From: Corallococcus praedator
Lineage (GTDB): Bacteria; Myxococcota; Myxococcia; Myxococcales; Myxococcaceae
Direction of reading: 5' to 3'
Assembly: GCF_003612125.1 (NCBI RefSeq)
Contig: NZ_RAWI01000003.1
Span: 1-64,000, forward strand
DNA: 64,000 bases
Shown here: positions 36,544 through 52,035 of the stretch, piece by piece
Position numbering within the stretch: the stretch's first letter is position 1
Layout of the letters: each line of letters opens with the position of its first letter
Made by a program: the position numbers and the translations under genes
Notes under the pieces: generated by a model
What the model saw: the letters and a program-made list of their open reading frames with translations, nothing else
The model's database searches: none
Told to the model about the DNA's origin: nothing

Positions 36544-39500
36544 ATGGCGGACACCTTGACCGGCGCTGAAGTCGCCATCGTCGGCATCGCGGGACGCTTT
36601 CCCGGCGCGAAGGACCTGGACGAGTACTGGCGCAACATCTGCGACGGCGTCGAGTCCATCGTCCGGTACACGGATGAAGAGCTGCTCGCGCTCGGCGCGG
36701 ACCCCACGCTGCTGCGCACGCCAGGCTTCGTGAAGGCGGCGGCACGGCTGGAGGACTGCACCCGCTTCGACGCCGGCTTCTTCAGCTACACCCCGCGCGA
36801 GGTGGAGCTGATGGATCCGCAGCAGCGCCTCTTCCTGGAGTGCGCTTGGGAGGCCCTGGAAGGCGCGGGCCACCGGGGCACGCCGGACGAAGAGCTGCTC
36901 GTGGGCGTCTTCGGCGGCGCGGCCCTGAGCACCTACCTGCTGGTGAACCTGGCCTCCAATCCGACGGTGCTGCGCTCGGTGGATCCGCTCCAGCTCAACC
37001 TGGGCAACGCCGGCAGCTTCCTCACCACGCGCGTCTCCTACAAGTTGGATCTGAAGGGGCCCAGCTTCAACGTGGAGAGCGCCTGCTCCACGTCGCTCGT
37101 CGCGGTCCACGTCGCCTGCCAGAGCCTGCTCAATGGCGAGTGCGACCTGGCGCTCGCGGGCGGCGTCTCCATCAACCTCACGCAGCAGTACGGCTACCCG
37201 TTCATCGAGGGCGGCATCCTCTCACCGGACGGCCACTGCCGGCCCTTCGACGCGGACGCGCGGGGCATCGTCTTTGGCAGCGGCGCGGGCGTGGTGGCGC
37301 TGCGCCGCCTGTCGGATGCGCTGGCGGACGGGGACTTCATCCACGCGGTCATCAAGGGCTCGGCCGTCAACAACGATGGCGCGAACAAGGTGGGCTACAC
37401 CGCGCCCAGCGTGGACGGACAGGCGGAGGTCATCGCCGAAGCCCTGGGCAGCGCGGACGTCTCCCCGGAGTCCATCGCGTACGTCGAAGCGCACGGCACC
37501 GGCACCTCGCTGGGAGACCCCATCGAGGTCCAGGCGCTCAACAAGGCCTTCGGTGGCACCGATGCGCCGAAGCGCTCCTGTGCCCTGGGTTCGGTGAAGG
37601 CGAACATCGGTCACCTGGATGCGGCGGCCGGCGTCGCCGGATTGATCAAGACGGTGCTGGCGCTGCGTCACCGCAAGCTGCCGCCCAGCCTCCACTTCGA
37701 GCAACCCAACCCGCACATCCCCTGGAACAACGGCCCCTTCTTCGTCAACACGGACCTGAAGGAGTGGAAGGCCGGCAAGGAGCCGCGCCGCGCGGGTGTC
37801 AGCGCGTTCGGCATGGGCGGCACCAACGCGCACCTCGTGTTGGAAGAGGCTCCGGCGAGGGACACCGCTCCCGCCGCGCGTGCGACGCAGTTGCTGGTCC
37901 TGTCCGCGAAGACGCCCACGGCGTTGGACGCGATGACCGCGAACCTCGCCGCACACCTGCGCGCGCGGCCCACGACCTCCCTGGCCGACGTGGCCCACAC
38001 CCTCCAGACGGGGCGTCGGCGGTTCGCGCACCGGCGGGCGGTGGTCTGCGACAGCGTGTCGGACGCGGTGGAAGCGCTCGCGGGCGAGTCGCGCGCGCGG
38101 CGTCAGCTCACCGGCACCGAGGAGCGCACGGCGAGGCCCGTGGTCTTCCTCTTCCCGGGACAGGGCACGCAGTCCGTGCGGATGGCGGCGGACGTGTACC
38201 GGGGCGAGCCGGTGTTCCGCGAGCAGGTGGACGCCTGCGCGGCGCTGCTGAAGCCTTACCTGGGCTTCGACCTGCGGCAGGTGCTCTACCCCGCCACGGA
38301 GGCCACGGCCGACGCCGCACGCCAGCTCGAAACGACGCGGGTGACGCAGCCCGCGCTGTTCACCGTGGAGTACGCGCTCGCGAAGCTGTGGATGTCCTGG
38401 GGCATCGAGCCACAGGCGATGATCGGCCACAGCGTCGGTGAGTACGTCGCGGCCTGCCTCGCGGGCGTCTTCTCGCTGGAGGACGCGCTCAAGCTGGTGG
38501 TGGAGCGCAGCCAGCTGATGCAGGAGCTGCCGGGCGGCACGATGCTGTCCGTGGCGCTGCCGGAAGCGGAGCTGTCGCCGCTCCTGCCCCCGGACGTGTC
38601 GCTGGCGGCGGTCAACGCGCCCTCCTTCTGCGTCGTCGCGGGCCCCACGCCCGCCGTGGAAGCGCTCCGGGTCCAGCTCCTCGACAGGAAGGTGGCCTGC
38701 CGGGTGCTGAAGACGTCGCACGCCTTCCACTCGGGGATGATGGAGCCCCTCCTGGAGCCGTTCGCCGCCCGGGTGCGAAAGCTCACGCTCAAGGCCCCGC
38801 GCATCCCCTACGTGTCCAACGTCACCGGGACGTGGATCACCCCGGCGGAAGCCACCTCGCCGAAGTACTGGGCCACGCACCTGCGTCAGGCCGTGCGCTT
38901 CGCCGCGGGCCTGGAGACGCTGCTCCAGCAGCCCGACCGGGTGCTGCTCGAAGTCGGGCCAGGCCGCACCCTCACCACCTTCGCCAACCAGTTGGGGAAA
39001 GTGCGAGGCGTCCGCGTATCGGCCATCACCACCCTGCGCCATCCGGACGACGCGCAGTCCGACCTGAACGTGCTGCATGGGGCGATGGGCCAGTTGTGGA
39101 TGGAGGGCGTGGAGCCGGACTGGAAGCGCTACCACCGGGGCGAGTCCCGCCGCCGCATACCGCTGCCGACCTACCCCTTCGAGCGGCGCCGCTACTGGAT
39201 TGAGGCCAGCCACGTCCCGACGGTGGCCACCGGGGTGTCGACGGAAGTCTCCGCGGCCACCGTGGTTCCGGATGTGTCCGCGACCCAGCACCCGCGTCCC
39301 GCGCTGCGCACCACCTACGTCGCGCCCCGCACCGAGCAGGAGGGCGCCATCGTCCGCATCCTCCAGGACGTGCTGGGCATCGACCCGGTGGGCATCCACG
39401 ACAGCTTCTTCGACCTGGGGGGCCACTCGCTGCTGGCCACCGCCGTCGTCGGGCGATTGCGCGACACCTTCGGCGTGACGGTGCCGCTCCAGTCGCTGTT

Positions 39501-40932
39501 CGAAGCCCCTACCGCCAGCCAGCTCGCGGCGCTCCTGAACAACCTGGGCGTGGCCCAGGAGCCTCGGCACGAGGACGCGGCGAAGGATGCCCTCGTGCGT
39601 GCGCTGACCGCGCTCCAGGAGCAGCAGGCCGCGCCCAGGGAGCCGGAAGCGCCCACCGGCGTGGCCGTCCAGACATCCGCAAGCACCCGGCCGCTCCACG
39701 TGCTCATCCTGGCCATGGAGTACACGCCCAACATCGCGGGCGGCGTGGGCACGTATGTCTATGAGCTGGCCAACGGGCTCGCGCGCTCCGGCCACCGGGT
39801 GACGGTGCTGTCCTATACGCCCGGGGAAGCCCGCGTCGTGCGCCAGCCCAACGGCGTGACGGTGCACATGGTGCCGCCCGGCAAGGCGAGCTTCGCCCAG
39901 GCGGCGCACCTGACGCTGGTGCAGGGCATCCGCGCCTTCAACGAGGACCTGTACCAGTACGGCCGCGCGCGCATCGCGGAGGAGAAGCCGGACCTCCTGC
40001 ACTTCCACCAATGGCATACACACGAGGCCGCGCGCCGGCTGGGCCGTGAGTCAGGCGTGCCCGTCATCGGCACCAGCCACTACATCTCCGAGCCCGTGGA
40101 GCGGTGGTGGGGACAACAGCCGGACCCGGAGATCGTCGAACAGGAGCGCAGCTTCTACGACGGCGGCACCCACGTCGTGTCCGTGAGCGCCTCCATGAGC
40201 ACGCTCATCCGCGAGCAGTACCGCCTGCCTTTGGAGAAGCTCCACACCATCCACTGCGCGATGGAGCTGGAGCCCTTCATGAAGTCACCGCACGGCGCGG
40301 ACGCCTTCGCGAAGCTGCGCGCCACGGTGGCGGGGCCAGAGACGCGCGTCGTCCTCTACACCGGGCGCCTCCACCCGATGAAGGGCATCCCCGCGCTCTT
40401 CGCCTCCGCCGAGCGCGTGCTCGCCGCGAGGCCGGACACCGTCTACCTGCTCGCGGGCGGCACGGACTCGCGCGAGTCCACGCAGATGGTTCACCAGTTG
40501 CGCGAGCAATACGCGCCCCTGCTCGGCCGCATCAAGCTGCTGGGCAAGCTGCCGCGCTCGCAACTGGGGCTCCTGCACCGCATCGCGGACGTAGCGGTGG
40601 TGCCGTCCATCTACGAGCCCTTCGGCTACACCGCCATCGAGACCATGGCCTCCGGCGTCCCGCTGGTGGCCACCGACGTCGGAGGGTTGTCGGAGATCCT
40701 CCAGCACGGAGAGTCCGGCCTCCACGTCCCCGTCCGCCCCGTCTCCGGCAGCGAGCTGCATGAAGTGGAAGTCGCGCAGCTCGCCAACGCCACGCTCGCC
40801 CTCCTGAACGATCCGGCACGCGCCCGGAAGCTGGGCGACGCAGGCCAGCGCCGCGTGGCCGACCTCTTCGGCCTGGAGCGGATGATCACCGCCAACATCG
40901 CCCTCTACCGCCGCGTCCTCGGCGCCCCCTGA
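36544..40932 (+). CDS. PKS-glycosyltransferase fusion: KS-AT-ACP-GT4
   Basis: 1462 residues. GGAG overlaps the upstream stop. KS: Cys181 in SACSTSL, HGTGT, NIGHLDAAAG. AT: Ser630 in GHSVGEY and the malonyl-type HAFH (His726 region). No reductive domains. ACP: Ser962 in GGHSLLA. After a Pro/Ala-rich linker (about 1025-1048) comes a full GT-B glycosyltransferase of family 4 type (about 1050-1455): PNIAGGVGTYVYELA, the sugar-nucleotide EX7E motif in YEPFGYTAIE (Glu1358/Glu1366), and VATDVGGLSEIL. A glycosyltransferase covalently joined behind the last carrier domain suggests that the carrier-bound chain, or a freshly released one, is glycosylated on the assembly line. The frame is continuous with no stop. 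No thioesterase domain. Confidence 0.93.
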   Translation: MADTLTGAEVAIVGIAGRFPGAKDLDEYWRNICDGVESIVRYTDEELLALGADPTLLRTPGFVKAAARLEDCTRFDAGFFSYTPREVELMDPQQRLFLECAWEALEGAGHRGTPDEELLVGVFGGAALSTYLLVNLASNPTVLRSVDPLQLNLGNAGSFLTTRVSYKLDLKGPSFNVESACSTSLVAVHVACQSLLNGECDLALAGGVSINLTQQYGYPFIEGGILSPDGHCRPFDADARGIVFGSGAGVVALRRLSDALADGDFIHAVIKGSAVNNDGANKVGYTAPSVDGQAEVIAEALGSADVSPESIAYVEAHGTGTSLGDPIEVQALNKAFGGTDAPKRSCALGSVKANIGHLDAAAGVAGLIKTVLALRHRKLPPSLHFEQPNPHIPWNNGPFFVNTDLKEWKAGKEPRRAGVSAFGMGGTNAHLVLEEAPARDTAPAARATQLLVLSAKTPTALDAMTANLAAHLRARPTTSLADVAHTLQTGRRRFAHRRAVVCDSVSDAVEALAGESRARRQLTGTEERTARPVVFLFPGQGTQSVRMAADVYRGEPVFREQVDACAALLKPYLGFDLRQVLYPATEATADAARQLETTRVTQPALFTVEYALAKLWMSWGIEPQAMIGHSVGEYVAACLAGVFSLEDALKLVVERSQLMQELPGGTMLSVALPEAELSPLLPPDVSLAAVNAPSFCVVAGPTPAVEALRVQLLDRKVACRVLKTSHAFHSGMMEPLLEPFAARVRKLTLKAPRIPYVSNVTGTWITPAEATSPKYWATHLRQAVRFAAGLETLLQQPDRVLLEVGPGRTLTTFANQLGKVRGVRVSAITTLRHPDDAQSDLNVLHGAMGQLWMEGVEPDWKRYHRGESRRRIPLPTYPFERRRYWIEASHVPTVATGVSTEVSAATVVPDVSATQHPRPALRTTYVAPRTEQEGAIVRILQDVLGIDPVGIHDSFFDLGGHSLLATAVVGRLRDTFGVTVPLQSLFEAPTASQLAALLNNLGVAQEPRHEDAAKDALVRALTALQEQQAAPREPEAPTGVAVQTSASTRPLHVLILAMEYTPNIAGGVGTYVYELANGLARSGHRVTVLSYTPGEARVVRQPNGVTVHMVPPGKASFAQAAHLTLVQGIRAFNEDLYQYGRARIAEEKPDLLHFHQWHTHEAARRLGRESGVPVIGTSHYISEPVERWWGQQPDPEIVEQERSFYDGGTHVVSVSASMSTLIREQYRLPLEKLHTIHCAMELEPFMKSPHGADAFAKLRATVAGPETRVVLYTGRLHPMKGIPALFASAERVLAARPDTVYLLAGGTDSRESTQMVHQLREQYAPLLGRIKLLGKLPRSQLGLLHRIADVAVVPSIYEPFGYTAIETMASGVPLVATDVGGLSEILQHGESGLHVPVRPVSGSELHEVEVAQLANATLALLNDPARARKLGDAGQRRVADLFGLERMITANIALYRRVLGAP

Positions 40933-43107: not shown

Positions 43108-44040
43108 ATGCGCAAGCGCCAGTCCGAGAAGGGATTCATTCTCACCGACGAGGCATCGATCGAGATGGAGTTGGAGCGCCTCCTTCCTGGAGTGCGGGAG
43201 GCGTTGGAGGCACTGCTTTCGTTCGACACGACCCCCAAGGGTGCGGATCACGAGGCGTGCACGAGATGGCTTGAAGGACGCCTCTCTGCGCTGGGTTTCG
43301 ATTGCCAATTGCATCGGCCCATCGACGAAGCCCCGGCCCTGCTCGAAGCACACCGGCCAGCCCGAGGCATGGGAGGGCATGTGGTAATGTACGGCCACTA
43401 TGATGTGACCTCCCGCCTTCATGGAACACACGGTGGCCCCACTCAAGCGCCTGTATTGCTCGAAAGGGACGGTCGCTGGTGGGGTCAGGGTGTGAGTGAC
43501 AACAAAGGTGCTCTCACCGCTCGCCTCGTGGCATTGGCCCTCATCGAGGACACACCAGCGCTGACCTGGTTCATCCAGGGTGAAGAAGAAACCGGCTCAT
43601 CGGCGGCCCGACGAATCATGGGCAAGCGACTGCCAGGAATCGAAGCCGACCTCTGGCTGGACGAGACCGGATACCACGACCATGAGGACGGAACACTCCG
43701 GCTTATTGCTCGCAAGATCGGCCCGGAACGCACGGGAAGCGAGCCCCCCGATGTAGCGCTGCAGGCCCTGATCGACAGCCTGGGTCAGCTCGCCGGATGT
43801 TGGGGGATTAGCGCTCGACTGGAGGTGCGTGGACTGAACAAAGCGGCGGTTTTGGGTGGATGCCCCTTCAACCAGAGCCTCCCGGTGGGTGCCCGCTATT
43901 TCGCGCTAGGCGTCAATGACTCACACTCCCGCATCCATGACGCGAATGAGTCAGTCCCCCTGTGGACCTTCCCGCTCCATGCCGAGGAGCTGCGGGCGGT
44001 GTTCCAGTGGATCAAGCAGCTTCCCTTTCGGGGGGCCTGA
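43108..44040 (+). CDS. M20-type metallopeptidase lacking the lid domain
   Basis: 310 residues from the ATG at 43108, which has GGGAGGAGGGG just upstream; two earlier in-frame starts lack such a site. A di-zinc M20 core is present: GHYDV (His97/Asp99), GVSDNKGAL (Asp131), GEEETGS (Glu159-161) and a late SRIHDANES with the last metal His. The usual dimerisation/lid domain (about 110 residues) between the third motif and the last is replaced by about 60 residues, so the protein is about 90-120 residues shorter than most M20 enzymes. Likely an aminoacyl or N-acyl hydrolase; substrate unknown. The stop overlaps the next gene's ATG, so the two are coupled. Confidence 0.82.
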   Translation: MRKRQSEKGFILTDEASIEMELERLLPGVREALEALLSFDTTPKGADHEACTRWLEGRLSALGFDCQLHRPIDEAPALLEAHRPARGMGGHVVMYGHYDVTSRLHGTHGGPTQAPVLLERDGRWWGQGVSDNKGALTARLVALALIEDTPALTWFIQGEEETGSSAARRIMGKRLPGIEADLWLDETGYHDHEDGTLRLIARKIGPERTGSEPPDVALQALIDSLGQLAGCWGISARLEVRGLNKAAVLGGCPFNQSLPVGARYFALGVNDSHSRIHDANESVPLWTFPLHAEELRAVFQWIKQLPFRGA

Positions 44041-46331
44041 TGCTGCCTCGACTCGGACCAGAGACAGTGCGAGCGTACCTCGCGCGACTTGGCAACCCCG
44101 GTGTCTCGCTGGATGCCAATGGACTGTCCTCTCTGCTGCGGGCCCACCTCCGCGCGCTGCCGTTCCACAACCTCGCGCTGCTGGCCGGAGAAGCAACTGC
44201 TCCCGGAGATTCTCCGGTCGAGGCGGCGGTGGAGGGAAACCTCGCCGGGCTTGGCGGCACCTGCCACCTGCTGACAACTCCATTCATCGCGCTCCTTCGA
44301 ACCCTGGGCTTTGAGGCGTGGCTCGCGGGAGCCACCGTTCGCGAAACCGGCAACCATGTGGTCGGGGTGGTCCGACTGCCAGAAGGAAGATTCATCGTCG
44401 ATGTCGGAAGTGGGCATCCCTGCATGCATCCGCTCCCCCTGGACGGAGCAGGATTTGACTTCACTGCTTACGGAACCACCTTTCGCTTCGAACGGGATGG
44501 GCACGAAGGACACCGGCTGCGGCGTACCCTGCCCAATGGACAGGGGGAGACCGTCTATCGCCTCACGCCGGAGCCCCGTTCGCATGACTCATTCTTTCAA
44601 CCCGAGACCAGCCCTTCACTCCAAGCAGTCAGGCTGAGCGAGTGGGCCCTGGCTTCGGTCCAGGATGGCCGCTATCAACGTTTCGCGGGCGGACTCGCAA
44701 GCACGCGTCCGGTGCCTGGATGGGAGGCCATGGCCGAGTTGCTGCACATCACCTTCGGGCTGCCCGAGTCGTTGATCCGACAAGCCCTCCATGCATTGCG
44801 GCGGCGAGTCCCCGACCTCTTGGAGGGAGTCCGGAATCCCCGCCCTTCCCCGCGCATCATCGTGTCATTGGCCGTCACCGACCGAGCCGAAAGCACTGCG
44901 GAGTTGCTCGAGTCCCTCATTGGGAACCTCGGCGCTCGTGAGGAGGGCTCGGTGGGAGTGCTCATCCTAGACAACGGGCAAGGACGAGATCAGGAACGCG
45001 AAGCGGCGCTCGAAGTGATACTTGAGAGTTCCCGCAGCAGGGGACTTCAAGTCACCCGCCTGAAGGCACGCGACGAACTTAAGCGCCTCGCCCCATCCCA
45101 GCGATGCGGCCTGCTCCCCTGCGGCCTCAATGTCCCGCTCCCCATTGGCGCCTCCCGCGCCCTCCAGACATCGCTCCTACACGAGCACTTGCGCACGGGC
45201 GTTCTCGGGCTGCCTCACCCAGGCGATGGCGGAGGGCCGGTGGCCGTCTGGATGCTGGATGACGACCTGTCCTTCCGAAGGCTTCGTGGCACATCCGAAG
45301 GGTTCGTGGAGGAACCCGTGAAGGACCTGCTCGACCGGGTCGAAGCGCTCTGGGCACAGCACCCTGAGGTATCCGTCGCGCTTGGCACCTGCACGGGGGC
45401 CCCTCCCATTCCGGGCTATGCGACCCTCCGCGTCCAGATGCATGACCTGGCCGGCAACCTCCGGGAGATGGCGGAACGAGAGCCCAACACAAACTGGGCT
45501 CCCGCACCGGGGCCTCGCCACCTGCCCGACTACTACTACGATCATGCCCGAGGCTCGGCGGATCACCTCCGGGCAGCCTTTCCCTGGACGCCGCCGGGAC
45601 GTGCGCCCTGGCGGGTGCGAGACGCCTTCCGAACCCTCTGCGTGGCGTTCACCCGGGTGCCTCACGGGCAGCAGGTCACCCGCCCCGTGCTCTACCAGCC
45701 GGTAGAGACCCTGGCACCGAGCCGCCACCGGGGGGGCAACGCGCTGTTCCTCGACCTGGACGCACTTGTGGCGGCACCCTACCCCGTGCTTCGTGGCGAG
45801 GATGGGGTGATGACTCGACGTGCCGACACGCTCTGGGCCCACCTTATCGCGCGGGAGCCCCTGCTCCGTCTCGTGCAGGCGGAGCTGGACCTGCTCCACG
45901 GTCGCCGCGACGGGGATGGAAACTCGCCGCTCGCCACACATCAACCGGACGTCATCGCGCTTCGTGGTTTCGTGGAAGGCCAGGAGCGAGGCGTGGTGCT
46001 CGCAAGGCTCCTGGAACACAAGTCCCCCGAGCCCCCCCCCGCTGTCGAGCAAGAGGTCTCTTCACGGCGCGACCTGCTCGCCCACGGACGGGAAGCCTTG
46101 CGGCGGGAGGCAGAGCAGGCCCGGAGCGCGCTGACCCGTCCCGAGGCATGGTGGTGGCGCGACGAGGAAGATGCCGCGACGGCCCGGGCCTGCGCTGTCG
46201 CGCTAGAGCAGGTAGAACTGCTGGCGGGCGCCGTGGACGCACTCGCGGATCCATCGCTGCCTGAACGACTGGCGGACTTCGCGCGGCACGTGGTCTCGAT
46301 CCTGCCAACCTGGAGGACGACATGGGACTGA
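44040..46331 (+). CDS. Fusion of arylamine N-acetyltransferase-like and glycosyltransferase-like domains
   Basis: 763 residues; the ATG overlaps the upstream stop. Residues about 1-270 match arylamine N-acetyltransferases, with the triad Cys75 (LGGTCHLL), His106 (GNHVVGV) and Asp121 (IVDVGSG), very near the numbering of bacterial NATs (Cys69-His107-Asp122). From about residue 280 a GT-A-like nucleotide-sugar transferase domain follows (PRIIVSLAVTDRAEST, VWMLDDDLSFRRL with an acidic cluster). The last about 150 residues are helical. NAT homologues can act as amide synthases (RifF type). I know of no such fusion in standard pathways. A run of nine C's at 46032-46040 encodes Pro-Pro-Pro. Confidence 0.75.
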   Translation: MLPRLGPETVRAYLARLGNPGVSLDANGLSSLLRAHLRALPFHNLALLAGEATAPGDSPVEAAVEGNLAGLGGTCHLLTTPFIALLRTLGFEAWLAGATVRETGNHVVGVVRLPEGRFIVDVGSGHPCMHPLPLDGAGFDFTAYGTTFRFERDGHEGHRLRRTLPNGQGETVYRLTPEPRSHDSFFQPETSPSLQAVRLSEWALASVQDGRYQRFAGGLASTRPVPGWEAMAELLHITFGLPESLIRQALHALRRRVPDLLEGVRNPRPSPRIIVSLAVTDRAESTAELLESLIGNLGAREEGSVGVLILDNGQGRDQEREAALEVILESSRSRGLQVTRLKARDELKRLAPSQRCGLLPCGLNVPLPIGASRALQTSLLHEHLRTGVLGLPHPGDGGGPVAVWMLDDDLSFRRLRGTSEGFVEEPVKDLLDRVEALWAQHPEVSVALGTCTGAPPIPGYATLRVQMHDLAGNLREMAEREPNTNWAPAPGPRHLPDYYYDHARGSADHLRAAFPWTPPGRAPWRVRDAFRTLCVAFTRVPHGQQVTRPVLYQPVETLAPSRHRGGNALFLDLDALVAAPYPVLRGEDGVMTRRADTLWAHLIAREPLLRLVQAELDLLHGRRDGDGNSPLATHQPDVIALRGFVEGQERGVVLARLLEHKSPEPPPAVEQEVSSRRDLLAHGREALRREAEQARSALTRPEAWWWRDEEDAATARACAVALEQVELLAGAVDALADPSLPERLADFARHVVSILPTWRTTWD

Positions 46332-47368
46332 AATTCCTCGTCACCGGCGGGTACTTTGATTCCTCCGGCGAAGGGGTTGTCTGGCACGTCGACCTGGAGA
46401 GTGAGCGGGCGGAGCCATTCATCCGCTGGATCCCCCCGGAGCACCTGCACGTGCCACGTAAGGGCTTTGCGGGTGGGTGCAGGGCAAGCGATGGTCACCT
46501 CTACGTCGCCGCGCACTGTGCCGTTGTCCGCGTCGACCTGTCACGAGCGGAGGTCTCGGGGGTGCTGCATCAGCCAAGCTTCAATGACATCCATCACGTC
46601 TCCGAGTCGTCAGGACGCTTGTACATCGCCAATACGGGTCTGGATGCCGTGGACCTCCTCAACCTGGAGGGGCGCTTCATCGGCTCACATGCATTACTGC
46701 CAACCTGGGCAAACCATCGGAGGATGGGAGGACAGGATCCGGCCCATTGGGATGAGGTGTTGAACACCGGTTGGAGCGGCGAGGCTCCAGCTCAGTGGCC
46801 CTCACCGCGGCCAGGGGATGGCTACCATGATCTCGGGGCCCAGCGGGGAGGCGCACCCTTTGCCCGACTCAAGGTTCCAGACCACCTCCATCCGAACCAT
46901 GTCTGCCCGACCTTGACGCAGACACTGGTAACCTGTCTTTACGATGGCACGGTGCGCGATCTCCGCACATTCGAGACGGTGTTGACCCTGGCCGGGATGA
47001 ACCCCCACGACGGCTTCCTCTCAGCCGACACGTTCTGGCTGACAACCATCGACGGGCGGGTGCACACCGCCCCAATGAGGGATGGCCGGGTCGCGGGAGA
47101 GTCCAAGGTGCGACGCAGCGTCTTCGAGACGGGCCATGCGGGCTGGTGCCGAGGATTGTGGACGAATGGCCGCCTGCTGGTCGTGGGACTCACGGAGCTC
47201 CGACGAAATCGAATGCCTCGCCATCACTGGGCGGATCGGGATCCAGAAGGCACGGAGACCTCCCTGCTGTTGTTGGAGCTTTCCGAAGGACGCCTGCTCG
47301 CGCGCGTAGATCTCACTGACGGCGAACGGCACTCCAAAATCTATAGCATCCTGCCATTGGAGACCTGA
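46322..47368 (+). CDS. Predicted beta-propeller protein
   Basis: 348 residues; overlaps the NAT/GT gene end by 10 bp. Repeated strand blocks such as GHLYVAAHCAVVRVDL, GRLYIANTGLDAVDLLNL, QTLVTCLYDGTVRDL, GRLLVVGLTEL and LLLLELSEGRLL fit an NHL/6-bladed propeller of the kind used as lactonase-like or binding domains. No signal peptide or metal motif is obvious. It is likely part of the same pathway as the flanking peptidase and transferase genes; role unknown. Confidence 0.6.
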   Translation: MGLKFLVTGGYFDSSGEGVVWHVDLESERAEPFIRWIPPEHLHVPRKGFAGGCRASDGHLYVAAHCAVVRVDLSRAEVSGVLHQPSFNDIHHVSESSGRLYIANTGLDAVDLLNLEGRFIGSHALLPTWANHRRMGGQDPAHWDEVLNTGWSGEAPAQWPSPRPGDGYHDLGAQRGGAPFARLKVPDHLHPNHVCPTLTQTLVTCLYDGTVRDLRTFETVLTLAGMNPHDGFLSADTFWLTTIDGRVHTAPMRDGRVAGESKVRRSVFETGHAGWCRGLWTNGRLLVVGLTELRRNRMPRHHWADRDPEGTETSLLLLELSEGRLLARVDLTDGERHSKIYSILPLET

Positions 47369-47429
47369 GATGAGCGTGCGTCGGGAGCAGACTGCCGAGA
47401 ACGCGACAGCCTGTGACAGGGGAGGACCA

Positions 47430-48353
47430 ATGACCCACGTGCTCATGCTGCATCGGGTGATGCCGAACCAGCCAACGGCGTTTAGTCTGCCGTCCTGCTA
47501 CCGGCTGCGTGGAACGGCACTCACGCCTGAAGAATTCGGCCGGGTGCTGGAGACTGGCCCCTTCCGAGCGCTTGATGAGGTGGTGGATGCACTCAGTCGC
47601 GGGGAACCACCTCCTCCGGGGCAGGTGCTCACCTTCGATGATGGTTACCGCGAGTGGGGAGAGGTTGTCGCACCCAGGCTTGAGGAGCAGGGGCACCGCG
47701 CGACCTTCTTCGTCTGTCCGGCGTTCCTCTCGGAGGCGAAGGAGGCCCATCCGGTGGATGTCTTCTATTGGCTGCTCGACCATGCAGAGTGCCCACGCTT
47801 CGAGTGCCCACTGCCCGATGGCACCCTGGTGCAGGGCTCCCTCGAAAGCCAAGAGGGCAAGAGCACATTGGTCACCGGAGCGTTGAAGCGCTTCGTGGTA
47901 CGGGGCGAGCGTGCCCAGGTCCGTGAGGTTCTTCGGGAGCTGGCGCAGGCACTGCGTATCGAGGTGCCTGATGGGCTGGCAAAAACGCTCTACCCCTCGG
48001 AGCGTGAGTTGGAGGGATTGGCGTCGGCCGGGCATCTGCTGGGCGGACACGGAGTGAGCCATCAGCACCTGCCAGTCTTGAGCAAGGCCGAGGCGGCGTT
48101 GGAGATTTCCAATGCCCTGGCATGGGTTGCGAGACTGTCGGGCGGGCACCCTGCGCCGTTCGCATATCCGGATGGCGCCTTCGATCCGGCCACCGAACAT
48201 CGCGTCGCGCAGGCAGGTGCCACGTGTGCCCTCACCTGCGTTCCGGGAGCCGTCACGCGCGAGTCAGCCCTCTTCCGATTGCCCCGGGAGTTCGTGACTC
48301 CCTGGCATCCACGGGTCGCCGTCCCTCCTGCTCCAAGTGGGGGCGCCGCTTGA
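47430..48353 (+). CDS. Polysaccharide deacetylase (NodB-like) family protein
   Basis: 307 residues from the ATG at 47430, which follows GGGGAGGA; an earlier ATG at 47370 has no site and overlaps the propeller end. NodB motifs: TFDDGY (Asp70/Asp71), HxxxH-type metal motif in GGHGVSHQHL, RATFFVCP and the C-terminal FAYPDGAF. The enzyme would remove N-acetyl groups from an amino sugar or related substrate. No signal peptide, so it is cytoplasmic or works on a lipid-linked or small-molecule sugar. It lies in a run of sugar-modifying genes. Confidence 0.83.
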   Translation: MTHVLMLHRVMPNQPTAFSLPSCYRLRGTALTPEEFGRVLETGPFRALDEVVDALSRGEPPPPGQVLTFDDGYREWGEVVAPRLEEQGHRATFFVCPAFLSEAKEAHPVDVFYWLLDHAECPRFECPLPDGTLVQGSLESQEGKSTLVTGALKRFVVRGERAQVREVLRELAQALRIEVPDGLAKTLYPSERELEGLASAGHLLGGHGVSHQHLPVLSKAEAALEISNALAWVARLSGGHPAPFAYPDGAFDPATEHRVAQAGATCALTCVPGAVTRESALFRLPREFVTPWHPRVAVPPAPSGGAA

Positions 48354-48429
48354 GACTCCCCTTGCGGATGCCCGTGTACGATGCTCGCGGAGTCCTGGCC
48401 CTCGCCCACGGATTACCGGTGATACGGAC

Positions 48430-49392
48430 ATGAGGAAGTGCGTACTGGTGACCGGTGGCGCCGGATTCATCGGCTCCCATGTGGTGGAAGCCCTGCTCTG
48501 TGAAGGGCGCGAAGTCGTCGTCCTTGATGACCTGTCGGCGGGACGAATGGACAACCTTCCAGCGCGTGAACCCCGTCTGGAGATCCTCGTGGGCTCGATC
48601 CTCGACCCGGAGTTGTGCACCAGGGGGATGCGTCACTGCGAGGCCGTCGTGCACCTGGCGGCCCTCAATTCCGTGCAGAGATCGCTGCACGATCCCAAGT
48701 CGGTGGTTGACGTCAACGTGATGGGCTCCCTCAATGTGCTGGAGGCCGCGCGGGCCGCCGGCGTGTCACGAGTCGTCTACGCGAGCAGCAGTTCCGTATA
48801 CGGAGCATCCATGACGCTGCCAAAACGGGAGGACCAACCGATGGCCGCAGGCAGCCCCTACGCGGCGACAAAGGCGGCTCTGGAGCAACTCGCCCAGGCC
48901 TGGACACGCGGGTTCGGGCTCCCGACGGTAGGCCTGCGCTTCTTCAATGTCTTTGGCCCCCGGCAGAGGCCCCACTCTCCCTATGCGGCAGTCGTCCCCC
49001 GATTCATCGAAGCCAGCCTGCGCGGAGGCGAATGCGTCATCCATGGAGATGGGGAGCAGACGCGCGACTTCAGCTATGTGGAGAACGTGGTCGTGGCGAA
49101 CCTGCGAGCGTTGGTCGCGGGGGAGGCTTGTTTCGGAAACGTGTACAACATCGCCGCAGGGGGACGGATCTCCGTCCAGGCGCTCCACGAGGCGATCGCC
49201 ACCCTCTTGAAGCGTGTGCAGCCTCCGCGCTACGAACCCTGGCGTCGGGGGGATACGCGGCACAGTCAGGCCGATGGCACGGCAGCAGCGCGGGACCTGG
49301 GTTGGATCCCGAGCGTGACCTTCGAACAAGGGCTTCGGCGGACAGTTGCCTGGTATGCCGAGCGCGAAGAGTCTTGGTGGCGCGACGGGTGA
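48430..49392 (+). CDS. NAD-dependent epimerase/dehydratase (UDP-glucose 4-epimerase-like SDR)
   Basis: 320 residues. ATG at 48430; the ribosome site is weak. Extended SDR: GGAGFIGSH at residues 9-17, Ser119-122 (SSSSVYG), catalytic Tyr144 and Lys148 (YAATK), plus GLRFFNVFGPRQRP and the substrate-binding end GDGEQTRDFSYV. It interconverts or dehydrates NDP-sugars, supplying a modified sugar to the adjacent transferases. The exact sugar cannot be inferred. It converges with the P-loop gene (12-bp gap). Confidence 0.9.
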   Translation: MRKCVLVTGGAGFIGSHVVEALLCEGREVVVLDDLSAGRMDNLPAREPRLEILVGSILDPELCTRGMRHCEAVVHLAALNSVQRSLHDPKSVVDVNVMGSLNVLEAARAAGVSRVVYASSSSVYGASMTLPKREDQPMAAGSPYAATKAALEQLAQAWTRGFGLPTVGLRFFNVFGPRQRPHSPYAAVVPRFIEASLRGGECVIHGDGEQTRDFSYVENVVVANLRALVAGEACFGNVYNIAAGGRISVQALHEAIATLLKRVQPPRYEPWRRGDTRHSQADGTAAARDLGWIPSVTFEQGLRRTVAWYAEREESWWRDG

Positions 49393-49404
49393 GCGCGCAC
49401 GACG

Positions 49405-49881
49405 CTACCCCGGAGAAAGCGCCCCTGTCAGCAGCGTGACCGGCAGTCCCAGCGCCTTCCACCGGGCATGTTCTTCATACCAATGGAGAGCATCATCCAG
49501 CCGCATGGGGCGACTGCCGGGCATGTGAAAGGGAAGACGTCCCAAGAACTGGCGTTCCCAGACGTCTTTCGGGGGAAGCAGCAGCAAGACCTCCTCATCT
49601 TGGGAGAGGGGAAACAGCGACTTCTCCTCCACCATCGCCATGATGACAACCAGTGGAGGCAGCCCGTCGTTGGCGGGATCCAGTTCCACCCTCCGGATGG
49701 CCTGGATCACCAGGGACTTGGCCTGCATCATTCCCTGGCGTGGCTTCGTGGGGTCGACCAAGGGGTGGAGCATCTGCGCGAGTTCCAGGACGCGTGGCGC
49801 AGGAGAAAGGGCCTGGAGGCCCAGCGCCCAGGTCGTCTTCCCCGCAGCAGGAGGCCCCACCAGCCAGGACAGACGTTTCAT
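49405..49881 (-). CDS. P-loop kinase-like protein
   Basis: 158 residues. An N-terminal Walker A (GPPAAGKTTWA, residues 9-19) and little else; a later strand LPPLVVIMAMVEE may hold the Walker B acidic residues, and LLPPKDVWERQF is typical of nucleoside/small-molecule kinase-like proteins. Likely phosphorylates a small substrate or acts as a nucleotide switch. It is the last gene of a three-gene minus-strand operon, overlapping the GT2 gene by 4 bp. Confidence 0.62.
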   Translation of the reverse strand: MKRLSWLVGPPAAGKTTWALGLQALSPAPRVLELAQMLHPLVDPTKPRQGMMQAKSLVIQAIRRVELDPANDGLPPLVVIMAMVEEKSLFPLSQDEEVLLLLPPKDVWERQFLGRLPFHMPGSRPMRLDDALHWYEEHARWKALGLPVTLLTGALSPG

Positions 49882-50633
49882 GGCTCCACCCCGAACAACC
49901 GTCGCGCGCGCTCCCTGAAGGCAGACACCCGCTCGGGCCCCATGATCCCAGCGTGCTTGACGAGAAAAGCCCGCATTCCGGCCACGTTGGTGGGCGAGCC
50001 CGCGGTGGACAGGCGGAGTTCCGGATGAACGTGGAAATACACCCGAGGTCGCGTGTTGCGTCCGTACCGGAGCCCCGGAAGTGATGCCAGCCGGATGCCG
50101 AGATCCATGTCGTGGAAGGAAGGCAGGGCTGGATCAAAACCTCCCGACTGGAGAAACGCCGCTCGGGAGATGAACAGGTTCGACCCCCGGAGACCTGGAT
50201 TGCGAACCAGGAAGTCGTCCGGATGAAGGATGGCCGGTGGAACCTTTTCCGGCACCACCTCCTGCGTGCCCTCCTGCTGTCGGACCTTGAGGAAGGCGGT
50301 AAGCACCAGATCCAGCCGCTCGGTGAGCGCCAGCTGTTCGGCCTCAGCCAGATAGGCAGGGTCCCAGGCGTCGTCATCATCGAGGAAGGCAAGGAACCGT
50401 CCCTGTGCCAGCGAAGCGCCCAGGTTGCGGGCGCGCGCCGCCCCGTGAGGCGCCTCGTGACGGACCCACCGCACCCCTGCGCTGGGAACGAAAGGATGGG
50501 GCACGTCTCCATCATCAATGACGAACACCTCGTCTGGACGACGGGTCTGTTCCGCCACACAGGTCAAGGCTCGCCGCAGGAGGGCCGGACGATGTCGTGT
50601 CGGGATGATGACGGAGAGCGTGCAGTGACTCAC
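49878..50633 (-). CDS. Glycosyltransferase family 2
   Basis: 251 residues. GT-A core: LSVIIPTRHRPALLRRAL, VFVIDDGD, GAARARNLGAS, and a four-Asp metal site FLDDDDAW with acceptor motif SFHDMDLGIRL. No membrane helices. It transfers a sugar from an NDP donor to an unknown acceptor. The start overlaps the stop of the preceding gene in the operon (50630-50633), and the end overlaps the P-loop gene, so the three are coupled. Confidence 0.88.
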   Translation of the reverse strand: MSHCTLSVIIPTRHRPALLRRALTCVAEQTRRPDEVFVIDDGDVPHPFVPSAGVRWVRHEAPHGAARARNLGASLAQGRFLAFLDDDDAWDPAYLAEAEQLALTERLDLVLTAFLKVRQQEGTQEVVPEKVPPAILHPDDFLVRNPGLRGSNLFISRAAFLQSGGFDPALPSFHDMDLGIRLASLPGLRYGRNTRPRVYFHVHPELRLSTAGSPTNVAGMRAFLVKHAGIMGPERVSAFRERARRLFGVEP

Positions 50634-51802
50634 CGGTGCGCTCGCTGTCGAGATGGCTGGGCAGCCAGAATCCTCCGAACCTCTTCGGCGGCTGCCGCGC
50701 CGCCTGGAGGACCGAGTCTCCGCAGGAAGACCTCCTGAGCCGTTACCTGTCGCACAAGCTCCGAGGGGCTTCGGTTGAGTTGCGCCACCACCCGCTCGCG
50801 CACCAAGGCCCGAGCCTTGACGTCGGCATCGAAGCGAGCCACCAACTCCAGCAGCCGGGCCGTTCCCTCCGCCTCCGGAACCAATGGATCAACAGGATGA
50901 TCCGGGTACAGCTCCGTGAGGTTCAGGCCTTGAGGTGCCAGTCCGTGCTCCTGGTAGACGGCGAGCTGACAGACCTGCGTGAGATTCTGGGGAGGGAGAA
51001 AACTGGTGGGGATGCCCAGCGCGAAACCCTCGAAGGGCGCATTCAGTCCCGGCGAGGTCAGGAACTGACTGGAGGAGGCCAGCATGGCCAGATACTGCTC
51101 CTGGGCCAAGGTCTCCACCCGCAGGCCGCCATCGGCACCTTCTTCCCGGATGCGTGCGACAGCCTTTGCTCCAGTTGCGACAGTCACTGCCTCGAAGCCC
51201 AGTCCTGCGAGAGGCAGTACCTCCCGCAGCAAGCGCGTCATGGTGGACGGATAGCAGGTGTTCTTCCCAGGGATGATGTCCGGGGAGTAAGCGCCGCCGT
51301 AATTCACCAGGAGGTGGGGCGTGGCGCGCCGATGCTGTCGGAGTAGGGAGCTGGCGATGAGCGGCCCCACAATCTTCGGCGCAATCATTCCCCGGCCATA
51401 CCGTTCGAGGGCCTCATCCACCCCCGGAAAGTTCTCGATGATGTAGCCACTGGCCTGACGCATGGCGGGAGTCATCCGTCGCTTCATCCAGAACAGGATG
51501 TCGACGAAAACCAGGGGTAGCTTCAGCTCCTGTACGAGACCGATATTGGTGTTGTTGGAGACGGCGAGATACAGGTCGGCGGCTGCTAGGACGGAAGCAT
51601 GCTGGCGCACTGATGCGGGATCCTTCACATCACAAGGAAGAACCCGGTCGAACGTCGCAGGATCGCATTGCTCCCGCACCGGCCCGGTGGCCAGCACCGT
51701 GAACGAGGCCTCCGGCAGATGACGCGCCAGCGCCCGAAGCGCGGAGATGGCTCCGTAACAGAACGGGTTGGGGTCACAGATGATCTGGAGCGATCGGCCC
51801 AT
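50630..51802 (-). CDS. GT-B-like protein (possible glycosyltransferase)
   Basis: 390 residues from the ATG at 51802; frames further upstream lack support and run into the tRNA region. The C-terminal segment TSPGLNAPFEGFALGIPTSFLPPQNLTQ, shown here in pieces (SPGLNAP, FEGFALG, FLPPQN), resembles the donor-binding end of MurG-like or nucleoside glucuronosyl-type GT-B enzymes. The N-terminus begins LQIICDPNPFCYGAISAL. No close family can be named with confidence. It is first gene of the minus-strand operon with the GT2 and P-loop genes. Confidence 0.55.
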   Translation of the reverse strand: MGRSLQIICDPNPFCYGAISALRALARHLPEASFTVLATGPVREQCDPATFDRVLPCDVKDPASVRQHASVLAAADLYLAVSNNTNIGLVQELKLPLVFVDILFWMKRRMTPAMRQASGYIIENFPGVDEALERYGRGMIAPKIVGPLIASSLLRQHRRATPHLLVNYGGAYSPDIIPGKNTCYPSTMTRLLREVLPLAGLGFEAVTVATGAKAVARIREEGADGGLRVETLAQEQYLAMLASSSQFLTSPGLNAPFEGFALGIPTSFLPPQNLTQVCQLAVYQEHGLAPQGLNLTELYPDHPVDPLVPEAEGTARLLELVARFDADVKARALVRERVVAQLNRSPSELVRQVTAQEVFLRRLGPPGGAAAAEEVRRILAAQPSRQRAHR

Positions 51803-51908
51803 GGGACGACTGACTCTAATGGCGTCGCCCCTCTCACCGCGCTGCCTCCTGGCTGCGTTGATGGTCAGTGAGCGAAGGGCCGCATCACCAGAGCCCACCC
51901 ACCGAAAC

Positions 51909-51942
51909 GAAAAAAGCCCCCGAATCTTTCGATTCGGGGGCT
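51909..51942 (-). terminator. Terminator of tRNA-Leu
   Basis: A perfect 12-bp stem (51915-51926 with 51931-51942) and 4-nt loop is followed on the minus strand by a T6 run (plus-strand A-run at 51909-51914). It lies just after the tRNA 3' end. Confidence 0.85.
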
Positions 51943-51953
51943 CTTCTTCGGAG

Positions 51954-52035
51954 TGCCCAGGGCGGGACTCGAACCCGCACGCCTCACGGCGCCACCACCT
52001 CAAGATGGTGTGTCTACCAATTCCACCACCTGGGC
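51954..52035 (-). tRNA. tRNA-Leu (anticodon GAG)
   Basis: Read on the minus strand: 7-bp acceptor stem GCCCAGG/CCTGGGC, D-arm with AATTGGTAGACA, anticodon stem CCATC/GGTGG around loop TTGAGGT (anticodon GAG), a long class-II variable arm, T-arm with GTTCGAGTC. The discriminator base is A. No encoded CCA. Confidence 0.92.

Follow-up and report, generated by a model that had tools for sequence, protein, structure and literature searches.

The subject of this study is a block of eight genes at positions 43,108-51,802 of a 64,000-nucleotide stretch of Corallococcus praedator DNA (assembly GCF_003612125.1, contig NZ_RAWI01000003.1), referred to here as the window. The block is an accessory, horizontally variable unit, and it probably encodes the biosynthesis of a small glycosylated product. 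With somewhat less than even confidence, we read it as a horizontally variable cassette whose product, a small glycosylated metabolite, is most likely built around a nucleobase or similar heterocycle. It is best termed an orphan cassette for biosynthesis, horizontally variable and perhaps nucleoside-like in its logic.

The eight genes and their arrangement

Eight open reading frames (ORFs) fill the block, 5 on the plus strand (43,108-49,392) and 3 on the minus strand (51,802-49,405). The two groups converge, and 12 bases separate the end of gene 5 from that of gene 6. Gene 2 starts at the last base of the gene 1 stop codon, and there are 4-base overlaps at the gene 8/7 and gene 7/6 junctions; starts and stops thus overlap within both strand groups, an operon-like arrangement. 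Families were assigned to the eight proteins using Pfam and NCBIfam.

43,108-44,040 (+), gene 1: short M20 metallopeptidase/deacylase-like protein, 310 aa (PF01546, 45.7 bits)
44,040-46,331 (+), gene 2: 763-aa fusion of an arylamine N-acetyltransferase-like (NAT) domain (PF00797, 54.2 bits, gathering cut-off 22.8) and a ∼490-aa GT-A-like domain (alignments)
46,322-47,368 (+), gene 3: propeller-like protein (weak DUF4915 and TIGR03032 matches)
47,430-48,353 (+), gene 4: polysaccharide deacetylase (PF01522, 61.7 bits)
48,430-49,392 (+), gene 5: NAD-dependent sugar epimerase (PF01370, 209.7 bits)
49,405-49,881 (-), gene 6: 158-aa P-loop protein (GPPAAGKTTW), small-molecule-kinase-like (weak AAA_33 match)
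49,878-50,633 (-), gene 7: GT2 glycosyltransferase (PF00535, 76.3 bits)
50,630-51,802 (-), gene 8: 390-aa transferase of predicted GT-B fold, without a Pfam match (TIGR04467, 42.1 bits; predicted structure)
51,894-52,035 (-), boundary: tRNA-Leu(gag) at 51,953-52,035 and a terminator-like hairpin just past it (alignment to cassette-free relatives ends at 51,894-51,904)

The gene list of the initial annotation, made from the sequence of the window, is correct, and the small P-loop protein is to be added to it. The gene 1 motifs HYDV, DNKG, EEETG, DETG and a C-terminal H are invariant across 6 sequences; the protein is presumably too short for the usual M20 lid domain. The propeller is conserved across 8 genomes, and a PDB profile search with it gave weak matches to WD40 fragments of TLE proteins alone. 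The P-loop of gene 6 is kept in 7 sequences, and the corresponding search gave a weak match to adenylate kinase 9. The top NCBIfam matches of genes 5 and 7 are below their cut-offs: TviC, a UDP-GlcNAcA 4-epimerase (207.5 bits, cut-off 760), and MftF (TIGR03965, 77.7 bits, cut-off 280), respectively.

Base composition and distribution

The GC content at third codon positions (GC3) is 0.69-0.76 in the eight cassette genes and 0.727 over the cassette. It is 0.85-0.98 in six flanking genes, which encode a polyketide synthase (PKS), a thioesterase, the 41,776 ORF, a JmjC protein, SecG and Pgk. The difference in base use from the flanks that the initial annotation pointed out is therefore real. Overall GC is 0.647 in the cassette versus 0.696 in the remainder of the window, and 0/554 equal-length sliding stretches of the window have GC as low as the cassette. 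This overall drop is modest, as GC falls to 0.63 in some other 1-kb windows; the strong signal is that of codon position.

The full cassette was found in 7/96 genomes of the family and in just 3/16 genomes of the genus, so the same genes do not recur in the same place and with the same composition in all relatives, and the block is accessory, as had been proposed. Gene 8 and a full-length or near-full-length gene 2 occur in the same 7/96 genomes. Among 195 genomes of the phylum, a gene 8 profile recovered these 7 and a propeller profile these 7 plus G011. A search of genome contigs with gene 8 returned 4 loci, all cassette relatives already found, and a plasmid search with the propeller gave no match. 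All eight genes are together in 6/7 genomes; in the seventh, Corallococcus terminator CA054A (G030, locus L029), the contig ends inside gene 2, before gene 1. The eight genes are kept together in genomes of 4 genera, and carriers outside the genus have the putative names Myxococcaceae metagenome-assembled genome PMG_225, Hyalangium versicolor and Archangium violaceum. Gene order varies. G005 and G033 have the converging two-operon order of the window, and in the congeneric G039 and G041 all eight genes run in one direction with gene 8 first.

Cassette proteins are 58-77% identical to those of the window in other genera. Gene 8 identity is 86-88% within the genus and 69-70% in other cassette genera; the corresponding values for Pgk are 98-99% and 78-83%. 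Between G000 and G026 the six cassette proteins compared differ by 5-11.5%, and the JmjC protein, the 41,776 ORF and SecG by 0-1%. Cassette proteins thus diverge more than flanking ones, which indicates faster evolution or a separate history; the data do not discriminate between the two. In the six genes third-position changes are ∼3.6-6.2-fold above second-position changes, an excess which implies that the cassette proteins are under selection.

Immediately left of the cassette are genes for a polyketide synthase, a thioesterase and a JmjC protein, and G026 retains these neighbours. The block could therefore be regarded as part of the adjoining polyketide cluster, in which case the NAT domain would release the chain as an amide synthase; GdmF (8ot2, E 3.6e-7) is among the PDB matches. 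Already disfavoured, this explanation is very unlikely. At the junction GC3 drops abruptly, being 0.93 in the JmjC gene and 0.69 in gene 1. The cassette-bearing G030 has no close JmjC homologue (its left flank lies beyond its contig), and the four cassettes of other genera have no thioesterase, JmjC or PKS match in the stretches compared. In addition, the NAT cysteine is lost in 3/7 cassettes, as described below. The polyketide cluster has a feature of its own: its last PKS protein (KS-AT-ACP; window 36,544-40,932, plus strand) carries a C-terminal fusion to a GT4-type glycosyltransferase (Pfam GT4-conflict, 51.8 bits, cut-off 26). Such a fusion of a glycosyltransferase to the end of a PKS module is uncommon.

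The tRNA-Leu edge

The block ends at tRNA-Leu, which the initial annotation suggested as an integration site. Five of the 13 cassette-free genomes of the genus (G018, G021, G023, G025 and G029) were compared with the window. All five align from ∼61 kb down to 51,894-51,904, ending just past the tRNA and its hairpin. The flanks beyond are mutually unrelated except in G023 and G025, which share ∼290 bp beside the tRNA and two short matches. These unrelated flanks identify the 3' side of tRNA-Leu as a variable site.

Integration by a recombinase is the part of the suggestion that the sequences do not support. No phage integrase is present among the eight proteins, and none was found beside the block; the window begins at contig position 1, so that the far left is outside its view. 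Neither a copy of the tRNA-Leu 3' end (an att repeat) nor a direct repeat bracketing the block was found within the window, in agreement with the initial annotation, and the four cassettes of other genera do not adjoin a tRNA. A divergent cassette in G011 lies ∼4 kb from a phage-integrase gene. The far side of tRNA-Leu(gag) and its terminator varies in nearly every Corallococcus genome compared, and is a promising place in which to seek other accessory cargo.

Weak resemblance of gene 8 to cytosylglucuronate synthase

The best family for gene 8 is hydroxymethylcytosylglucuronate/cytosylglucuronate (CGA) synthase, TIGR04467. All 7 cassettes score 40-48 bits with this model; elsewhere among the 195 genomes four gave matches, of 21.3 bits at most. 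The predicted gene 8 model has a GT-B fold with a pLDDT of 81.6, and superimposes on YojK (7vm0_B) with a Z score of 23.1 and a root mean square deviation of 3.9 over 315 residues (VIA). The VIA and Foldseek matches listed are GT-B enzymes, natural-product and UDP-sugar transferases, with MurG among them; a PDB profile search gave no match. Outside the family the nearest matches are Streptomyces plasmid proteins (24-26% identity), one of which has a 98.6% probability in a profile comparison. In 3/3 of these plasmid loci (L087, L088 and L089) the unannotated gene 8-like protein is encoded immediately before one of the DUF5937 family.

Genes added or altered in sister cassettes

A LOG-superfamily protein is encoded between the propeller and the deacetylase in G041, G005 and G039, or 3/7 close cassettes. 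That of G005 (L031) matches PF18306 with 131.5 bits and TIGR00725 with 137.9 bits, above the cut-off of 106.9. The genome of the window has one distant LOG elsewhere (33% identity). In 1/7 cassettes, that of G039 (L032), a nucleotide-sugar dehydrogenase gene lies between the deacetylase and epimerase genes (TIGR03026, 304.3 bits, cut-off 189.8); its product also matches TviB/WecC-type models, far below equivalog cut-offs. The divergent G011 cassette (L079) retains M20, propeller, deacetylase, P-loop, and separate NAT and GT-A genes at 32-44% identity, and additionally holds a LOG gene. Between its NAT and M20 genes is a PhyH-type dioxygenase gene (93.7 bits; L079 11,377-12,534, minus strand).

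The motif GG.C, which we take to mark the NAT catalytic cysteine, is present in gene 2 of the window, G026, G030 and G033. GGTC is replaced in G041, G005 and G039, and the G005 domain has lost a further ∼70 residues. Loss of the cysteine coincides exactly with the three LOG-carrying close cassettes (L030, L031 and L032), a pattern of 3 versus 4 cassettes in which two of the three are congeneric and to which G011, with both LOG and cysteine, does not conform. Amide transfer by the NAT domain is thus not essential everywhere, and the pattern suggests product variants with and without an acyl step. The initial annotation had proposed a sugar-amino acid conjugate, which is too specific given the absence of the cysteine in 3/7 cassettes; LOG, the nucleotide-sugar dehydrogenase and the resemblance of gene 8 to CGA synthase suggest a nucleobase glycoside at least equally.

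Loss of the cysteine and the ∼70-residue deletion in L031 would also be expected of a decaying or non-functional island leftover. We consider decay highly improbable, as all eight frames are open in the window and third-position changes exceed second-position changes.

Comparison with known systems

CGA synthase is described, in a passage of PMC3715490, as joining UDP-glucuronate and free cytosine. The blasticidin S and mildiomycin pathways (BlsD/MilC CGA synthase) resemble the cassette in the best family of gene 8, and sister cassettes can include enzymes for both inputs that such a synthase needs, a candidate for base release and a UDP-sugar dehydrogenase. They differ in that gene 8 scores 42 bits against a cut-off of 300. 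Neither a BlsE/MilG-type radical SAM decarboxylase nor a MilB/BlsM-type CMP N-glycosidase was found among the eight proteins, the latter being replaced by LOG in 3/7 sister cassettes. For the GT2, GT-A-like, propeller and M20 genes we know of no counterpart in these pathways. Gene 8 is accordingly not classed as a CGA synthase, nor the cassette as a blasticidin-type cluster.

In angustmycin biosynthesis a LOG enzyme, AgmA, provides free adenine according to a section of PMC8599513. A LOG-superfamily protein may likewise release a base from a nucleotide in the cassette. Unlike AgmA, the cassette LOG is of the TIGR00725/LDcluster4 subfamily, has the motif GGGxGTxxE and occurs in sister cassettes only, and no phosphoribosyltransferase-type enzyme was seen. 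The supply of aminouronate for Vi-type polysaccharide (TviB/TviC) is similar in the best match of gene 5, TviC, and in the TviB/WecC-type matches of the L032 dehydrogenase. It differs in that both cassette enzymes are far under equivalog cut-offs and polymer export genes are absent. Among the papers listed in literature searches none described the cassette or its relatives, although such a description may exist.

Relatives of gene 2 on plasmids and phages

Neither Pfam nor NCBIfam gave a match for the C-terminal part of gene 2, which contains the motifs WMLDDD (DDD), DYYYD, RGGN and RRxD. The GT-A label derives from these motifs and the GT2-neighbour context, not from the fold (the domain model has a pLDDT of 43.4), and a PDB profile search with the domain gave no match.

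The motifs recur in a 1116-aa protein on a Pseudoalteromonas donghaensis plasmid (NZ_CP032092), whose GT2 part is 33% identical to gene 7. After it come a RibA-NADAR fusion, in which RibA is joined to an N-glycosidase domain for riboflavin intermediates (TIGR02464, 117 bits, above cut-off), then an AsnB-like protein and a NAT. GT2, GT-A-like and NAT are therefore together beside a candidate base-releasing enzyme, as in the cassette. Unlike the cassette, GT2 and GT-A are fused with an extra region between them, RibA-NADAR and AsnB replace LOG, and the propeller, deacetylase, M20 and gene 8 are unmatched in the stretch examined. This row of genes (L090 7,631-14,150) lies beside conjugation genes and looks like a separate orphan cluster of small size.

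Giant proteins of 1800-1960 aa with GT2 and GT-A-like parts are encoded on three phage-like contigs with recombinase genes, at

L115 1,412-8,576
L116 9,965-17,120
L117 10,019-16,179

They comprise GT2, GT-A-like, kinase-like, methyltransferase and further glycosyltransferase regions and are associated with LOG. The kinase-like assignment is our own tentative one, as no Pfam model matched that region. In 3/3 contigs a LOG gene is close downstream or a LOG domain is fused at the C-terminus of the giant, and one giant is followed by a nucleotide-sugar dehydrogenase gene. The giants match a PHROG moron glycosyltransferase. In viral contigs 36 loci were found, of which L116 and L117 were examined; the other 34 match chiefly in the common GT2 part. 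A phage collection searched with the L101 giant gave matches to the LOG region alone, in Synechococcus phages. The GT-A-like domain is also present in a 1725-aa protein of G155, and a Salinivibrio plasmid locus has two glycosyltransferase genes and no annotated NAT. Weak GT-A matches were found in G082, G103 and a second place in G005.

It is conceivable, though we consider it rather unlikely, that the GT-A-like domain is the hallmark of a mobile, as yet undescribed family of systems that assemble nucleobases and sugars, ranging from phage giants to the eight-gene cassette. Most members would pair sugar transferases with a base-freeing enzyme, either LOG or a RibA/N-glycosidase fusion. They would make diffusible nucleoside-like agents and be carried by phages, plasmids and a tRNA-bound variable site.

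Modification of a surface or protein glycan would account for many of the same observations. GT2, GT-A-like, GT-B, epimerase and deacetylase would build or edit an exposed glycan, and carriage by phages and at a tRNA-bound site would serve serotype switching or superinfection exclusion. The enzyme classes of the cassette fit, as do the recombinase-bearing phage-like contigs and the moron match, and the TviC-like epimerase and TviB/WecC-like dehydrogenase are of polysaccharide type. This explanation is doubtful. Flippase, polymerase, ABC exporter and lipid-carrier transferase are absent from the eight proteins, so the cassette is not a capsule or O-antigen locus, an identity that would have refuted the initial annotation. 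LOG and NAT would have no obvious role, and gene 8 groups with natural-product GT-B enzymes, although MurG is also listed.

Mobile carriage and patchy presence are also expected if a small molecule derived from nucleotides is the product of both the cassette and the phage-borne giants and acts in defence against phages or as a weapon against competitors. Accessory genes are linked to predation in Corallococcus in part of PMC6306037. Such a role is unlikely: PADLOC models matched 0/8 cassette proteins at E 0.01, and no effector or immunity-like gene was recognised.

Product of the cassette and proposed pathway

Sugar transferases are repeatedly accompanied by a base-stripping enzyme (LOG or RibA-product N-glycosidase) and sugar-nucleotide enzymes, which fits a base-sugar conjugate. 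That the product contains a nucleobase is possible rather than probable, and the individual steps below, whose substrates and order we infer, are more tentative still.

The epimerase, with the nucleotide-sugar dehydrogenase of one sister cassette, would supply a UDP-(amino)uronate. A LOG-type phosphoribohydrolase, encoded in the three sister cassettes and the divergent locus and elsewhere by the host, may release the base from a nucleotide, and gene 8, the GT-B enzyme, would then couple it to the sugar. The deacetylase would expose an amine, to be acylated by the NAT domain where its cysteine is intact, and GT2 and the GT-A-like domain may add or transfer more sugars. The M20 enzyme may trim or unmask the product. 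The P-loop protein may phosphorylate an intermediate or confer self-protection.

Several observations weigh against a nucleobase product. Gene 8 is below the TIGR04467 cut-off, as are the proteins of all 195 genomes (0/195 pass), and its Streptomyces relatives are in unrelated neighbourhoods. LOG is absent from 4/7 cassettes, those of the window, G026, G030 and G033, and no LOG was found in the stretches examined around the G155 and Salinivibrio relatives. Where it is present, the sister LOG has GGGAGTLSE or GGGAGTMSE in place of PGGxGTxxE, the canonical LOG phosphoribohydrolase motif in the part of PMC8599513 that describes it. The best solved relatives of the sister LOG are an uncharacterised protein and molybdenum-cofactor carriers. 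Searches of the eight proteins with Pfam and NCBIfam showed no radical SAM decarboxylase, no exporter or regulator and no carrier-protein domain. Surface-glycan modification would share several of the enzyme classes. In favour of the nucleobase reading, an antiSMASH 'nucleoside' cluster is listed in PMC6306037 for 1/24 genomes of a Corallococcus pan-genome study, CA054A. This is the one strain of that paper tied by accession to a cassette contig (L034); the cluster is a lead only and may be another locus.

If a nucleobase-derived glycoside is indeed the product, the cassette would be an orphan pathway in a genus valued for antibiotics. It could easily be missed by ordinary cluster finders, because a PKS, nonribosomal peptide synthetase or ribosomally synthesized and post-translationally modified peptide core is absent from the eight genes. 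The GT-A-like domain would provide a sequence handle on a mobile family that occurs on phages and plasmids, and the associations with LOG, N-glycosidase and CGA synthase would allow a direct test of the nucleobase hypothesis using a small number of enzymes.

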